A DNA stretch of 38,241 nucleotides from a virus. The translations under genes and the position numbers were made by a program. Positions 3,420 to 37,961 of the stretch are shown piece after piece. The stretch covers positions 1 to 38,241 of the IMG/VR virus record IMGVR_UViG_3300042691_022738, one strand, 5' to 3'. The first letter of the stretch is position 1, and every line of letters starts with the position of its first letter. The notes under the pieces are model-generated. The model ran no database searches and was not told where the DNA came from. It saw only the letters and a list, made by a program, of their open reading frames with translations.

Positions 3420-3829
3420 TACTGTTGTTGTACAGCAACCATTTTTTGTTTTACTTCTTCAAAATTCACAGTTGACCAAAGCCCTGGATGCAATGGTTTG
3501 GGCCAGGTAGTCGAGTCAATCCAGGCCCAGCCATGATGTTCATCATTGAGTATGGGTGTAAACTCCGTGGATACACTGCAAAAAAATGTGTGATAAGAAA
3601 AATTACCGTCAGGACTGGTAAATTTTTCTATGGGTACTAGCTTTATTTCTTCGGGCCAATGGCCTAGCTCTTCGATGCATTCTCTTTTGATAGTTTCTAA
3701 CAAAGTTTCATCACGATGACACTTGCCTCCAGGCAACCCCCAGGTTCCAGGATTACGATCATCATTGCGCAACAGGTAAAGATATCTGTTGGTAGTGACT
3801 GAGTAGAACCAAACACCCACTGCGTTCAA
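3404..3829 (-). CDS. NUDIX hydrolase (MutT-like)
   Basis: About 141 aa from the proposed TTG start at 3829. The NUDIX box spans residues 35-57 (GGKCHRDE, seven residues, RECIEELGH) and fits G-x5-E-x7-RE-U-x-EE-x-G, so the metal-binding REUxEE core is intact. NUDIX enzymes hydrolyse nucleoside diphosphates linked to another moiety; the substrate here is unknown. An ATG at 3898 is also in frame but would overlap gp15 by 73 bases. The TTG has GGAG 9 nt upstream and overlaps the gp15 stop as TTGA, and from it the protein begins NAVGVWFY, where NUDIX domains usually begin. I prefer the TTG. Last gene of the minus-strand gp14-gp15 block. Confidence 0.85.
   Translation of the reverse strand: MNAVGVWFYSVTTNRYLYLLRNDDRNPGTWGLPGGKCHRDETLLETIKRECIEELGHWPEEIKLVPIEKFTSPDGNFSYHTFFCSVSTEFTPILNDEHHGWAWIDSTTWPKPLHPGLWSTVNFEEVKQKMVAVQQQYQTSQ
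3424..3447 (+). terminator. Weak candidate terminator after fibre operon
   Basis: GTTGT (3424-3428) can pair with GCAAC (3435-3439) across a 6-nt loop, including one G-T wobble pair, and is followed by a run of six T at 3442-3447. It lies just after the stop at 3419 and inside the 3' end of the opposing NUDIX gene. The short stem keeps this tentative. Confidence 0.3.
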
Positions 3830-6612: not shown

Positions 6613-6641
6613 TTGACCAGAAAATCCAAAACTGCTAAAAT
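6613..6641 (+). promoter_or_regulatory. Sigma70-type promoter, extended -10
   Basis: TTGACC (6613-6618), a 17-nt spacer, then TAAAAT (6636-6641) preceded by TGC, an extended -10. It matches the bacterial consensus at 5 of 6 positions in each hexamer. The predicted start (about 6647-6648) coincides with the ATG of the next gene. Confidence 0.65.
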
Positions 6642-6646
6642 ACTAT

Positions 6647-6913
6647 ATGAACCTGGAAAATTGGCAAGAATTTTCAGATCGGCTAGATCAAACCCACTCG
6701 CAGGCTTTAAAACTAAAGTTTGGGATAAAAGAGCTTTGGACTATGTATCGCAACGTCCAGACTCTGTTGCGCCTAGCCAGCATTGAAATGGTTGAATGTC
6801 GCCGTCGTAAAAAAGCCACAGGCAAATATGTGGAAATCATGCAACAGGCAGAAGAAGCCTTGAAAAATTTTGAAAACCATGTTATACTTGCAACATTGAT
6901 GAAAAAGGACTGA
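6647..6913 (+). CDS. Small helical protein of unknown function
   Basis: 88 aa, mostly charged and predicted helical by eye (SDRLDQTHSQALKLKFGIKEL; VECRRRKKATGKYVEIMQQAEEALKNFENHV), with no recognisable motif. The start is directly below a good sigma70-type promoter, so it may be expressed early from a leaderless message. No Shine-Dalgarno is visible. The next gene starts 2 nt after its stop, supporting an operon. The overlapping 60-codon frame at 6604-6786 begins upstream of the -10 and is rejected. Confidence 0.65.
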   Translation: MNLENWQEFSDRLDQTHSQALKLKFGIKELWTMYRNVQTLLRLASIEMVECRRRKKATGKYVEIMQQAEEALKNFENHVILATLMKKD

Positions 6914-6915
6914 CC

Positions 6916-8091
6916 GTGAAAACAGCTCAAACACTCAAACCCGCCAAACCCCTGCATATTCGATCTGCGGATACCAAATACATGGGTGACGAACCCGCTT
7001 GGAAATTCCAGCCCGAAGCCGACCGTCGTGTGAGCAGTTTGGCCAATGCATTCAATTGGTACAATTATTATCTTGGCAAGAAAGAAGTCAAAGAGTTTGT
7101 AGCAGATTGGTTGGATCGTCACGAGGACAAAAATGCCAAAACGTTTCGTAGTATTCCTGAACAGGGCATACCTAGCACCATGGGTTGGCTTTGCCGCATG
7201 AATACCATGGGTCTAGACCTTACCGAGCACGAACTATTATACATCGAAAATCAAGTATCAGAACTGTTGAACAAGTATAAACCGGCCAAGAAGCTTTCAG
7301 CCAAGGCACAGGAATCTGCAGATGCCAAAGCGGAACAACAAGCAGAAACTGCTCGCATTACCATACAAGATCGTTTGCGTGAAAAAGTCAGTGAATGCGC
7401 CGGCGAAATTGAAGGATTGTTTGACGACTTTATCATAGCTGGTGCCAAGATGTCAGCAGATTACAAGCCCATTACCTTGATACGAGGTATGAACATCGCT
7501 CCGCAGATGGTCAATACTATCGTGGATGACTGGAAAAAGCGTGTGGCAGAATTCGAAGAAGCCATTGCAGGACGTGATGCACAGTTAGTAGAAGGCTACA
7601 GTCCTTGGACAAAAACACAGCTCAAGAACTTTGTGAAGTTCGGGGAGCAAGTCATTGCAGACTGTGGTAATTATGTGCAGATCAAGAAAGTAGAGCGCAA
7701 ACCACGTGCTAAAAAAACAGTGAGTCCAGAAAAACTATCTGCTAAATTCAAGTTCTTGAAGGAGTTTACAGAACTCAAGCTCAAATCAGAGTTGCCTTCT
7801 AAATTGGTTGGTGCCAGCGAAGCATGGCTATACGATACCAAAAAACGCAAGCTCATTCACGTTGTAGCAGATACCCATGCTGGGTCGGTCAGTGTTAAAA
7901 GTTCCAGCATCGTGGGCATGGATACAGTACAAAGCCAACAAAAAACCCTGCGCAAGCCCGCTGAACAGCTCAAGGCCTTGTTAGCTGGGGGCAAACCAGC
8001 ATCACGCAAGTATTTCAAAGACATCAAAGCCACAGAAACCAAGTACAATGGGCGTGGCAATGAGAACTTGATCATACTCAAAGCCTACTAA
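6916..8091 (+). CDS. Unknown 391-aa protein upstream of gp13
   Basis: Starts at GTG (6916) with AAAAGGA about 9 nt upstream, 2 nt after the previous stop. The N-terminal part (TLKPAKPLHIRSADTKYMGDEPAW ... ANAFNWYNYYLGKKEVKEFVADWL) is followed by Ala/Lys-rich helical stretches, with two PAKKLSAKA / PEKLSAKFK-like segments. The C-terminus contains SEAWLYDTKKRKLIHVV and ends KATETKYNGRGNENLIILKAY. I recognise this as a conserved hypothetical of T4-like aquatic phages but cannot give a function. The TAA stop (8089-8091) doubles as the first three bases of the gp13 late promoter core. Confidence 0.7.
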   Translation: MKTAQTLKPAKPLHIRSADTKYMGDEPAWKFQPEADRRVSSLANAFNWYNYYLGKKEVKEFVADWLDRHEDKNAKTFRSIPEQGIPSTMGWLCRMNTMGLDLTEHELLYIENQVSELLNKYKPAKKLSAKAQESADAKAEQQAETARITIQDRLREKVSECAGEIEGLFDDFIIAGAKMSADYKPITLIRGMNIAPQMVNTIVDDWKKRVAEFEEAIAGRDAQLVEGYSPWTKTQLKNFVKFGEQVIADCGNYVQIKKVERKPRAKKTVSPEKLSAKFKFLKEFTELKLKSELPSKLVGASEAWLYDTKKRKLIHVVADTHAGSVSVKSSSIVGMDTVQSQQKTLRKPAEQLKALLAGGKPASRKYFKDIKATETKYNGRGNENLIILKAY

Positions 8092-8094
8092 ATA
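8089..8094 (+). promoter_or_regulatory. Late promoter of gp13
   Basis: CTAAATA (8088-8094), overlapping the stop codon of the upstream gene. Predicted start point by T4 spacing is G8100, inside the 5' arm of the hairpin at 8095-8113. Confidence 0.65.
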
Positions 8095-8113
8095 CTGGGG
8101 CAAGGAGCCCCAG
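8095..8113 (+). promoter_or_regulatory. Hairpin presenting the gp13 ribosome-binding site
   Basis: CTGGGGC (8095-8101) pairs perfectly with GCCCCAG (8107-8113). The 5-nt loop is AAGGA, the Shine-Dalgarno sequence, and the ATG follows at 8114. In a read-through transcript the SD would be held in a tight GC-closed loop. A late transcript starting near 8100 would lack most of the 5' arm. No T-run follows, so it is not a terminator. Confidence 0.7.
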
Positions 8114-8884
8114 ATGGTAGATCAAAACGAAGCAACCCTAGAAACACTCAAACAAAATCTCATTGAGTATGCACGTCTAACTCTGGGTGACCAGATAGTG
8201 GATCTTGAACTAGACCCACTGCATTATCAAGCGGCATATCAGCGCACCATTGGCACCTATCGTCAGCGGGCACAAAATGCCTATGAAGAATGCTATATCT
8301 TTTTAACACTGCAAGAAGATCTCAATATCTATACTTTGCCACAGGAAGTACAGAGTGTTCGCCAAGTGTTTCGACGTACCATTGGCAACAGTCAAGGTCC
8401 ATACTCATCCAGCTTTGATCCATTTAGTTCAGCCACTCTCAACACCTATTTGTTAAATTACAGCAGTGCCGGCGGTTTGGCCACTTACGATTTTTACACA
8501 CAGTATGTAGAGTTGGCCGCTCGTATGTTTGGTGGATTTATGAACTACACTTGGAACCCTGTGACCAAGCAACTGCAATTCATACGTGATCCCAAAGGTA
8601 CCGGTGAAACTGTTTTGCTTTGGGTTTACCAACTCAAACCAGAAATAGCTCTATTGAGTGATTGGCAAATACAGCAATGGATACGTGATTATTTTGTGGC
8701 TGCCTGTAAAATGATCATTGGCGAGGCACGTGAAAAGTTTGCTCAAATAGCAGGACCACAAGGTGGCACCAGCCTAAACGGTGCCGCTCTCAAAGCCGAA
8801 GCACAGACTCAAATGGATCTCAAAATCGAAGAGCTCAAGCTCTATGTAGATGGCTCAGAGCCGTTGACCTTTGTTATAGGTTAA
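8114..8884 (+). CDS. 13: Neck/head completion protein, gp13-like
   Basis: 256 aa. The pattern LKQNLIEYARLTLGDQIVDLELDPLHYQAAYQRTIGTYRQRAQNAYEE, followed by YIFLTLQEDLNIYTLPQEVQSVRQVFRRTIG and later VLLWVYQLKPEIALLSDWQIQQWIRDYFVAACKMIIGEAREKFA, is that of the T4 gp13 neck family. With gp14 it completes the filled head and docks the tail. T4 gp13 is about 309 aa. Unusually, gp13 is on the opposite strand to gp14 and gp15, which in T4 follow it directly. Expression is probably late, from the promoter at 8089. Confidence 0.8.
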   Translation: MVDQNEATLETLKQNLIEYARLTLGDQIVDLELDPLHYQAAYQRTIGTYRQRAQNAYEECYIFLTLQEDLNIYTLPQEVQSVRQVFRRTIGNSQGPYSSSFDPFSSATLNTYLLNYSSAGGLATYDFYTQYVELAARMFGGFMNYTWNPVTKQLQFIRDPKGTGETVLLWVYQLKPEIALLSDWQIQQWIRDYFVAACKMIIGEAREKFAQIAGPQGGTSLNGAALKAEAQTQMDLKIEELKLYVDGSEPLTFVIG

Positions 8885-13832: not shown

Positions 13833-13861
13833 AAAAATGGGGCTTAGGCCCCATTTTTTTT
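13833..13861 (+). terminator. Rho-independent terminator after tail sheath gene
   Basis: AAAATGGGGC at 13833 onward pairs with GCCCCATTTT ending at 13858 (11 bp including A-T pairs, TTAG loop), and the T-run continues to 13861. It lies 18 nt after the gp18 stop and upstream of the tube late promoter, so sheath and tube are transcribed separately. Confidence 0.85.
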
Positions 13862-13875
13862 GATCTCATCTGCCA

Positions 13876-13881
13876 TAAATA
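13876..13881 (+). promoter_or_regulatory. Late promoter of tail tube gene
   Basis: ATAAATA at 13875-13881. Predicted +1 is 13887, leaving a short leader with an AGGAGAGA Shine-Dalgarno before the ATG at 13905. A weak 5-bp inverted repeat, ATTAC (13882-13886) and GTAAT (13900-13904), would bracket this SD only in read-through RNA. Confidence 0.65.
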
Positions 13882-25273: not shown

Positions 25274-25279
25274 TAAATA
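25274..25279 (+). promoter_or_regulatory. Late promoter of the gene after gp17
   Basis: ATAAATA-CTAAACT-ATG: core 25274-25279 overlapping the end of gp17's TAA region, seven bases, then the start at 25287. The 16-nt block is nearly identical to that of gp14 (one base differs in the spacer). Predicted +1 is 2 nt before ATG. Confidence 0.65.
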
Positions 25280-25286
25280 CTAAACT

Positions 25287-26693
25287 ATGAGTCAATCCAA
25301 CACAGCCTCCCAACAACTTTACGATTTGCTAGTCAGCAGAGATTTTGATCCAGAAGCCTTGGATGCTACAGGCAAACCTGCAGACGATCCTGCTGATGCT
25401 GAAATCATCAGCTTTGACTACAAAACCGATGAGAAAAACTACGGTGCTGTGGTATTGGTGCTGGACGGTGACAACAACTTAGATATCTACTTTGGCGACA
25501 ACATGGGTCGCGCCATGGAAGGCGATGACCGCAGTGAGTGGTACGATTTCCTTTACCTTGTGCGTATGTTTGCCAAGCGTAACTTGCTGACATTCAGCCT
25601 TAAAAATCTATCCAGACTCAAATACAACATGAAGACCATGGCTGCTGTAAAAGAAAGTATCTTTGAAGGCTACTACGGATCTCGTAAAATCAGCTACAGC
25701 GACCAACCGCAGAAAACAAGACTGCGTATCAAACACAGCAAAGACCTTGAAGAAGGTGAAGCACGATATCGCAACATTGAAAGCATCTATGTTGAAAATG
25801 CACAAGGCGAAAGATTCAAAGTACCTAGTCGTAGTTTGATGCACGGTCGTATGATAGCACGACATGTGGCCGAAGGTGGCAATCCCTACGATGCCTTTGG
25901 CCAGCATATCAACGAAATGGTCGAAGAGATGCACACATTGGCAAACTTTGTGAGAGCATCCAAAAACAAGAACTACGATGGCGATGCCAATCACATGGTA
26001 GAGTCTGCCATACGTCATTACTCTGAACTCAAAGCCAAGGCCAAACGCATGATTGGACGCCGTGGCTATCATGAAGCACGTGAACAGTTTGATCCTGCAG
26101 AGATTACTCCAGTGAACGAAGCAGTAGAGACCATTAGAGAATTATTTGTACAACACACATTGGATCCTCGCATAGAACACGCATTGCCACTGTTGGCAAA
26201 ACTACAAGAAGCACCAATGAAAGAAGCTGATCAATTTGCATCTTGGGCAGACAACATCATGGAAGGCACCTGGGCATTACCAGAAACTCCAGAATCAGTT
26301 AAAAAATTACAAGACCTAATGAGCAAAGATCTCATTGTTGGTCCCGATGCTACCAATGCCACAGAACAATTATATGATCTAGTGGGTGATGATGTGTTGT
26401 TTGATATCCTGGAAGAGATTGCAGAAATCAATCCTGACGCCAATGTCTGGGATGACGCTCGTGTACAACGACGTTTTGACGAACTAGGTATCCCCATGGC
26501 AGATATCACTGATCAAGCAGACTTTGACAACAGCTATGACGCTGATAACACAGACACACAACAAGTAAAAGAAAGTTCATGCAACATGACTCGTGAAGGA
26601 ACAGAGTGTCCTGTGCATGGCATGAACGAGTGTGGCATGTACGAACACAAAACTGAGCTAGAAAGAATTAGATCACTCGCCGCAGTACAATGA
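25287..26693 (+). CDS. Probable prohead/virion protein downstream of gp17
   Basis: 468 aa, conserved hypothetical. Contains DYKTDEKNYGAVVLVLDGDNNLDIYFGDNMGRAMEGDDRSEWYDFLYLVRMFAKRNLLTF (about 45-104) and a long helical region. Several L/I-x-E|A/G sites fit gp21 protease: SIFE|G, NIME|G, KLQE|A. Near the C-terminus CNMTREGTECPVHGMNECG forms a possible zinc site of a type seen in other aquatic-phage head proteins. Expressed probably late from a near-leaderless mRNA with no Shine-Dalgarno. Overlaps the next gene by ATGA. A prohead core or internal head protein is the best guess. Confidence 0.7.
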   Translation: MSQSNTASQQLYDLLVSRDFDPEALDATGKPADDPADAEIISFDYKTDEKNYGAVVLVLDGDNNLDIYFGDNMGRAMEGDDRSEWYDFLYLVRMFAKRNLLTFSLKNLSRLKYNMKTMAAVKESIFEGYYGSRKISYSDQPQKTRLRIKHSKDLEEGEARYRNIESIYVENAQGERFKVPSRSLMHGRMIARHVAEGGNPYDAFGQHINEMVEEMHTLANFVRASKNKNYDGDANHMVESAIRHYSELKAKAKRMIGRRGYHEAREQFDPAEITPVNEAVETIRELFVQHTLDPRIEHALPLLAKLQEAPMKEADQFASWADNIMEGTWALPETPESVKKLQDLMSKDLIVGPDATNATEQLYDLVGDDVLFDILEEIAEINPDANVWDDARVQRRFDELGIPMADITDQADFDNSYDADNTDTQQVKESSCNMTREGTECPVHGMNECGMYEHKTELERIRSLAAVQ

Positions 26694-28937: not shown

Positions 28938-28943
28938 TAAATA
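28938..28943 (+). promoter_or_regulatory. Late promoter after gp32
   Basis: GTAAATA at 28937-28943. Predicted +1 is 28949, inside the 5' arm of the hairpin at 28943-28971. Confidence 0.55.
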
Positions 28944-28971
28944 ACGCCACAAGGTTAATTCTTGTGGCGTT
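28943..28971 (+). promoter_or_regulatory. 11-bp hairpin between gp32 and radical SAM gene
   Basis: AACGCCACAAG (28943-28953) pairs perfectly with CTTGTGGCGTT (28961-28971) around a GTTAATT loop. No clear T-run follows (TACTAATTTT), so termination would be inefficient at best. The 3' arm contains a TTG in frame with the radical SAM gene (28962), and the 5' arm and loop hold AAGG. Confidence 0.7.
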
Positions 28972-36847: not shown

Positions 36848-37379
36848 AACGTTCCAACACCAGTAGCCCAGATCCGCGATTGCAGTGTTCTATAATATGC
36901 CATTCATGATTGTGATGCAAAAATACAATCACAGCTTCAAACACTCCGGGCCACTCAGTGGGATCGTGAAGCACAATATACTTTTGAGCATGACAAGCAT
37001 GACGGTCTAGCTCTGCTAGACAATGCTGTTTGGTATGTACAGTGTCAATAAACAGTAAGTCACAGGGTTCAATGTCTATTTCTAAACTGTTGGCTATGGC
37101 AAACTCAAAGTCAGTGCCATTGAGTTCAGCACAGTGTTTCAATTCGTCTAGCACAGTTAAGTTAGCATTGGTGATATCATAGCTTCGTAGTTTTTTTGGA
37201 TTTCCGGCAAGCCAGGCACAGGTACTGAGTCCAGTATAAACTCCAAACTCTACTATGCTGTCAACTTGACTGGCATACTTCTTATAAGTGTCAAATCTAG
37301 TTGGGCTGTCGCCTAACCATTTGGTAGGATGTATTTTTAATTCAACAAAGTCTTGTTGAAGTTCTTGTAGTGTTCTCAT
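36840..37379 (-). CDS. Class I methyltransferase-like protein
   Basis: 179 aa. SIVEFGVYTGLSTCAWL (41-57) is motif I of the CmcI/methyltransferase-24 type; RSYDITNANL and IEPCDLLFIDTVHTKQHCLAELDRHACHAQKYIVLHDP (about 107-144) are strands 4 and 5 with the LLFID...H pattern. Such enzymes often act on sugars or small molecules. It overlaps both neighbours (8 and 4 bases). Confidence 0.7.
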   Translation of the reverse strand: MRTLQELQQDFVELKIHPTKWLGDSPTRFDTYKKYASQVDSIVEFGVYTGLSTCAWLAGNPKKLRSYDITNANLTVLDELKHCAELNGTDFEFAIANSLEIDIEPCDLLFIDTVHTKQHCLAELDRHACHAQKYIVLHDPTEWPGVFEAVIVFLHHNHEWHIIEHCNRGSGLLVLERYA

Positions 37380-37921
37380 TGTTTTCTTAACCAGTATACA
37401 CCCAGCTTGCTTTTTTGGCTTTTACGATACGAGTCAAATACATAGTGCCCCCAAGTATCCATAACTTCATCGTGACTCCAGTCATCTTTGACATGTGCTT
37501 CGTGAGGGTTTTCATAGGCATGTTCGTCCTGCGGCATGTGTCTGATGGGGATGCTCACAATCAGTGTGTCTGCTACAGAAAGAATACGGTCAACCAAGGC
37601 AACAGCATCCGTTTTGGTCATATGTTCTAGTACATCACCTGCAATGACCACACTGGGATTTAATTCGTTCCAGTTCACAGTTCTCACATCTTGGTTTAGC
37701 ACACGAGTATACCGGCTTTCCAACTGAAATTCTTCAATGTATGGTTTCCAAATTTCTACACCGATCCAGGTTGCATTTGTGCAACACCCAGCTTCTTCTT
37801 TGATCAATTTGATATAGGTGCCTGACCCAGGGCCAATATCCACCACTGTGGTAATTTTTGATTCGTTGCTTTGAAACCATGCTAGAGTTTCGGCTTTGCC
37901 TGATTTGAGACTGAATGACAT
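37376..37921 (-). CDS. SAM-dependent methyltransferase
   Basis: 181 aa from the ATG at 37921 (MSFSLKSGKAETLAWF), chosen because AAGGAAAA lies upstream and the longer frame to 38038 overlaps the divergent gene and promoter. Motif I TTVVDIGPGSGTYIKLI (24-40), WIGVEIWKPY, and VVIAGDVLEHMTKTDAVALV (motif IV region) are clear. Substrate unknown. First gene of the minus-strand glycan-related trio. Confidence 0.78.
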   Translation of the reverse strand: MSFSLKSGKAETLAWFQSNESKITTVVDIGPGSGTYIKLIKEEAGCCTNATWIGVEIWKPYIEEFQLESRYTRVLNQDVRTVNWNELNPSVVIAGDVLEHMTKTDAVALVDRILSVADTLIVSIPIRHMPQDEHAYENPHEAHVKDDWSHDEVMDTWGHYVFDSYRKSQKSKLGVYWLRKQ

Positions 37922-37947
37922 TTGTTTTCCTTGGTAGTGTGGTATGC

Positions 37948-37961
37948 TATAAATATTTATA
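37948..37961. promoter_or_regulatory. Palindromic bidirectional late promoter
   Basis: TATAAATATTTATA is a perfect 14-nt palindrome, so it carries a full TATAAATA on each strand (plus 37948-37955, minus 37961-37954). It lies between two divergent genes (37921 on the minus strand, 37977 on the plus strand). Confidence 0.7.

Follow-up and report, generated by a model that had tools for sequence, protein, structure and literature searches.

A conserved hairpin at the late promoter of the neck gene gp13 in T4-like jumbo phages, predicted to silence its read-through RNA

Introduction

Several genes of phage T4 (e, soc, 49, I-TevI, I-TevII and segB), as well as mobE of Aeh1, have leaders in which the Shine-Dalgarno sequence (SD) is structured only in read-through RNA (PMC3014915, PMC2988022). 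In leaders of the gene e type the late promoter is placed so that late RNA misses the 5' arm of the structure. Leader RNA structure is also found at the late structural genes 25 and 38 of T4, whose split ribosome binding sites carry it between the SD and the AUG, where it raises translation (PMC3014915). Late cores before structural genes are known from the ATAAATA late promoters of CBB and GAP32; the CBB paper predicted the same late motif by a Buttimer-type MEME analysis, and in the part of its text covered here hairpins are absent and the word 'hairpin' does not occur (PMC5259590).

Here we describe the leader of a gp13-like gene in a window of 38,241 nt, which is the whole stretch of DNA analysed, a 38-kb IMG/VR fragment of a T4-like phage. 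The leader resembles the gene e type in that its SD is predicted to be structured only in read-through RNA, its late promoter is placed so that late RNA would miss the 5' arm, and predicted opening costs are similar. It differs in that the gene concerned codes for a neck protein (gp13) in T4-like jumbo phages, in that the SD of the window's clade sits in a loop of 3-5 nt with the arm starting directly past the core, and in that the switch is retained across most of a deep gene family in several geometries. With genes 25 and 38 it shares a structured leader at a late structural gene, and with CBB and GAP32 a late core before one. A split ribosome binding site of the gene 25/38 type was ruled out, because the SD lies inside the hairpin loop.

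Results

The original prediction described a perfect hairpin, CTGGGGC-AAGGA-GCCCCAG, before the gp13 start codon with a late core just upstream, and both are exact in the window sequence (Table 1). The 3' arm ends at 8113 and adjoins the ATG (8114-8116), the core lies directly 5' of the hairpin, and the stop codon of the upstream ORF overlaps that core. The extended form of the core is CTAAATA (8088-8094), short of the full TATAAATA. The seven-pair stem consists of six G-C pairs and a single A-U pair. The predicted folding energy of the 19-mer is -13.3 kcal/mol (z -3.3), a stability that 0/200 shuffles reached. Perfect stems of at least 7 bp are by themselves common: Markov sequence contains about 11 of them per strand in 38 kb. 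For stems that have at least six G-C pairs and a loop of 3-6 nt, the chance expectation over the whole window is 0.33, and the gp13 hairpin is the sole one. It additionally holds the SD in its loop and adjoins both the start codon and the late core. The AUG is partly enclosed as well, two of its bases being paired in an outer helix confined to the window's subclade. Because this helix pairs 8085-8090 with 8115-8120, the hairpin with its flanks folds at -19 kcal/mol.

Table 1. Features of the gp13 leader and its surroundings in the window.
Feature	Position	Strand	Basis
Late-promoter core TAAATA (T4-type), expected +1 at 8100	8089..8094	+	sequence; T4 octamer spacing (PMC2988020)
Hairpin 5' arm CTGGGGC, mostly upstream of the expected late +1	8095..8101	+	sequence, fold
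Loop AAGGA with SD (AAGGAG including the first G of the 3' arm)	8102..8106	+	sequence
Hairpin 3' arm GCCCCAG, adjoining the start codon	8107..8113	+	sequence, fold
Outer helix 8085-8090 / 8115-8120 in read-through RNA, window subclade only	8085..8120	+	fold
Proposed regulated gene, gp13-like neck / head-tail adaptor	8114..8884	+	phrog_211 E 1.6e-25; homologous to annotated jumbo-phage neck proteins
Upstream co-directional gene (phrog_11903, function unassigned), putative source of read-through	6916..8091	+	E 8.7e-65; TAA 8089-8091 overlaps late core
Sigma70-like promoter TTGACC-N17-TAAAAT with extended -10 TG, before two small-to-medium co-directional ORFs	6613..6641	+	conserved in relatives
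Further sigma70-like promoter, TTGAAA-N17-TATACT (extended -10 TG), immediately 5' of the upstream gene	6860..6888	+	sequence

The T4 late-promoter octamer spans about -13 to -6 (PMC2988020), and the +1 in the window is therefore expected near 8100. We compared read-through and late RNA by the cost of opening the whole initiation region; the unpaired probability of the SD was dropped as a measure, since loop-type hairpins make the SD look 'unpaired'. Gene starts in the scan were set by simple ORF rules. For the window leader the predicted cost is 13.3 kcal/mol in read-through RNA versus 3.5 in late RNA, in line with the earlier view that the former would fold the hairpin and the latter would not. 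The late transcript was modelled from 8101, one base past the expected +1, and 8100 gives the same value. When RNA starts were stepped through the leader, the cost was about 9.7 kcal/mol from 8095-8096 and 3.5 from 8100 onward.

The excess cost of read-through over late RNA was at least 4 kcal/mol in 86/93 gp13 leaders (median 9.5), while differences of at least 8 occurred in only 2-5% of non-late genes. A start at least 4 nt past the core removes at least half of the cost in all 86 strong leaders, and at a 5-nt offset the drop is complete in 94% of them. Where core and SD are about 25 nt apart, with the SD downstream, the arm nevertheless precedes the core, a position that spacing does not force. 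In essentially every strong leader the 5' arm thus lies upstream of the start expected from the core, as predicted for an arm that late initiation would cut.

Applied to T4, the same opening-cost scan ranks e, I-TevII, 49, segB and I-TevI at the top, genes that we take to be these from their coordinates and in part from their N-terminal sequences. All five have been described or implicated as such cases (PMC3014915, PMC2988022), which agrees with the original prediction that gene e and a few others are silenced in this way in early read-through messages. With the known cases on top, the mechanism is therefore already known. What appears to be new is the gene concerned, together with the conservation across the family and the change of geometry within it: a literature search, for which subscription journals were mostly out of reach, returned no description of the switch in these phages. 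T4 gene 13 itself, located after wac (L175, about 3593-3640), has a GGGGCC-GCAA-GGCCCC hairpin just before its SD with no TAAATA core, and is therefore a different arrangement.

Homologues of gp13 are encoded by the isolated jumbo phages Atu_ph07, PA5oct, K64-1/RaK2, 121Q, CBB, BF and Munch. TAAATA precedes gp13 in 80/80 first-scan relatives, and the 12 isolates that we examined have it as well. In most first-scan relatives the hairpin begins 0-2 nt past the core and the SD (GGAG) occupies a loop of 3-5 nt, and the arm letters vary: CTGGGGC/GCCCCAG, TGGGAC/GTCCCA, TAGGGAAC/GTTCCCTA, TAAGGAAC/GTTCCTTA, TTGAGAAC/GTTCTCAA and AAGGGGAAC/GTTCCCCTT. Pairs were counted from the loop outward; MAFFT columns lose the stem register because loop length varies between 3 and 5 nt, and pair counts on the alignment were not used. 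When 3' arms were re-dealt among 24 distinct leaders, the observed pairing was never reached in 20,000 tries. On the gene tree, six pairs require at least 17 two-sided Watson-Crick changes. G-U pairs occur in the stems, and the SD is the only part conserved in sequence. The proposed check for conserved pairing in related phages thus came out in its favour. Drift of an arm without compensation had been named as evidence against a switch; most leaders compensate, but a few drift (L013, L050, L058, L072 and L076).

The hairpin also takes other forms. In jumbo phages of enterobacteria and Xanthomonas it is the 3' arm that contains the SD, and the 5' arm coincides with the late core or precedes it. 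The distant jumbo phages K64-1, 121Q, CBB, BF, Munch and XaC1 have helices of 9-13 bp with the anti-SD arm at or upstream of the core, as in the K64-1 leader ATAGCACCTC-taaata...-GAGGTGCTAT-ATG; the arms are GCACCCCTA...TAGGGGTGC in Munch, ACCCCTAAATATG...CATGTTTAGGGGT in CBB and BF, and AATCCTCTAAA...TTTAGAGGATT in XaC1. The core can also lie inside the loop, as in L286 (TCTCCTGCCA-ATAAATAC-TGGCAGGAGA) and likewise L289. L015 and its near copies have lost the loop-type hairpin, and an upstream arm hides the SD, whose predicted unpaired probability is 0.01 in the long RNA versus 0.66 in late RNA.

In 121Q (KM507819.1 260959; L090 2402) the annotated gp13 start ATGAGGTGC falls on the SD. This start is likely misannotated, and an in-frame ATG 15 nt downstream suits the hairpin and the relatives better.

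Two sigma70-like promoters precede gp13 on the same strand (Table 1), and between them and gp13 no + strand terminator was found in the window. A promoter of the TTGACC/T-N17-TATAAT type precedes the homologous upstream gene in most relatives checked, with 0-1/60 shuffles as good, the count being 0 in most cases. In enterobacterial phages this upstream position is taken by metabolic genes (nudix, glutaredoxin, macro domain). Strong hairpins were found at 81/108 loci with a co-directional neighbour versus 0/13 with a neighbour on the opposite strand; the 27 co-directional loci lacking one include PA5oct. Because the independent strand flips number 3-4, this contrast in gene order is only suggestive of a tie between hairpin and co-directional neighbour and is not significant alone.

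At L202-L208, where the neighbour lies on the opposite strand, gp13 is preceded by TAAATAATGTATATG or similar with no SD, a leaderless-like neck gene.

The late machinery was examined across the relatives. In the IMG/VR genomes TAAATA occurs upstream of starts 82 times in sense versus 14 in antisense, mostly 15-30 nt before the ATG. A gp55-type late sigma factor (phrog_12791, E 1.5e-73 in G002) is present in relatives and absent from the 38-kb fragment of the window. Where a late core is present, the upstream arm of a gene pairs better with that gene's own SD than with the SDs of other genes (0/5000 permutations, both groups), whereas non-late genes show no mean shift. Opening-cost differences are likewise greater in late genes (P 6e-5 and 4e-6). 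By duplex energy there is also a small excess among the IMG/VR non-late genes when the strongest cut-off is applied (6.2 vs 2.9%).

Similar arrangements occur at other late genes. The tail sheath genes of K64-1 (L114 2420) and CBB (L136 13797) have AATCCTCCAA/TTGGAGGATT-type helices around their late cores, rank among the hits of the opening-cost scan and are predicted to be silenced. A 2591-aa ORF of G002 (L107 289-8064, minus), with weak similarity to phrog_22593, and its twin of G005 in L164 have a helix TTCCTGAGTTATG...CATAAACTCAGGAA around the late core, with the SD hidden.

Discussion

Together, the sequence comparisons argue that the gp13 hairpin is real and under selection and that it forms an RNA switch of the kind seen at T4 gene e, with silencing as its predicted effect, and very probably a cis-acting timing switch. 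Early transcription from the sigma70-like promoters at ~6613 and ~6860 would cross the phrog_11903 gene into gp13. In this long RNA the 7-bp hairpin by the AUG would lock the SD in its loop, so that the 30S subunit could not bind and no neck protein would be made early. Late in infection, a gp55-type sigma factor would initiate from TAAATA at ~8100, within the 5' arm. The late RNA would retain two arm bases and expose the SD at 3 nt from its 5' end, allowing translation of gp13. The original interpretation, a hairpin that folds in read-through RNA and is cut by the late start, is supported in silico by the conserved pairing, the core, the placement of the arm, the sigma70-like promoter, the late sigma factor of relatives and the T4 control; its use would be to prevent premature synthesis of the neck protein. 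Weighing against this reading are the incomplete core of the window, the 27 co-directional loci that lack a strong hairpin and the small number of strand flips behind the orientation contrast.

The main rival is translational coupling, in which gp13 translation would depend on a ribosome that terminates on the upstream gene and opens the hairpin with its footprint. In most relatives 20-28 nt separate the upstream stop from the gp13 start, and here this stop overlaps the core, where a ribosome that terminates might open the hairpin; the hairpin, moreover, occurs only with a co-directional neighbour. However, hairpins are kept where the stop is farther away (41 nt in L036, 76 nt in L030, about 47-57 nt in K64-1, CBB and BF), and coupling explains neither the constant position of the 5' arm ahead of the late start nor the presence of a dedicated late promoter placed so as to remove the arm. 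We consider coupling unlikely as the explanation, though it could operate alongside silencing. A hairpin that is present in late RNA too and helps it, by protecting the 5' end or positioning the SD as in T4 genes 25 and 38, has precedent in the beneficial leader structures of T4 (PMC3014915). In genes 25 and 38, however, the structure lies between SD and AUG, whereas at gp13 the SD is within the hairpin. The arm, moreover, is cut by the expected late start, and arms of the K64-1/CBB type lie at or before the core and therefore cannot be in late RNA, which leaves this reading very improbable.

We give an equally slim chance to a protein-binding site, be it an operator dyad in the late-promoter DNA or a hairpin bound by a translational repressor. 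The dyad beside the promoter is perfect, and in T4 I-TevI is known to repress its own expression at a late promoter (PMC2988022), yet complementarity is kept while arm sequences and geometry vary freely, with G-U pairs in the stems and sequence conservation in the SD only. The GGAG in the loop could also suggest a processing site at which RegB-like cleavage destroys the read-through mRNA. This we rejected as hardly credible: a RegB homologue was found in 0/13 relatives, while the T4 positive control was found, the window itself covering a fragment of its genome; moreover, RNA within a structure is shielded from RegB, and the site here lacks the A-rich 3' context (PMC3014915). An intrinsic terminator was rejected too, since on the + strand the hairpin is followed by ATGGTAGATC, with no U tract; a terminator match on the minus strand carries just a weak T run, at a place where no gene ends.

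A gene e-type switch at gp13 would carry a mechanism known from few T4 genes over to an essential structural gene, in a phage group that is widespread and for the most part uncultured, and selection would here preserve the logic while the RNA structure turns over. The original prediction had missed the family-wide rule, the several geometries and the other late genes such as the tail sheath genes of K64-1 and CBB. We lean slightly towards the joint claim that in the jumbo T4-like group an anti-SD arm fused to the late core is a general control layer, arising whenever an early gene lies upstream, at the gene for the neck protein as well as at tail sheath genes (in K64-1 and CBB) and several large or unknown late genes. 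If so, arms would be re-invented in differing geometries, and late genes amid early genes would stay untranslated until their own promoter fires. The gp13 case also yields a sequence test for late genes read through early, corrects gene starts and promoter maps and, as a by-product, provides a scan that places the known T4 cases on top.

Additional late cores in the window

Other late cores in the window show further arrangements. A tRNA-methyltransferase-like ORF (37376-37960, minus) has an AT-rich palindromic late core region with a predicted opening cost of 13.7 versus 1.3 kcal/mol. At 28938-28971 an 11-bp hairpin (AACGCCACAAG/CTTGTGGCGTT) directly follows TAAATA; the listed TTG start at 28962 lies inside it, and the real start may therefore be downstream. 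Past the tail sheath gene, an 11-bp terminator-like hairpin, AAAAATGGGGC-TTAG-GCCCCATTTTT, occupies 13833-13858, and the next late core is at 13876. Finally, at the late cores TAAATACTAGACTATG (gp14-like gene, 6604-6589, minus) and TAAATACTAAACTATG (25274-25289) the expected +1 lies about 2 nt before the ATG, and the late mRNAs made there are possibly leaderless.
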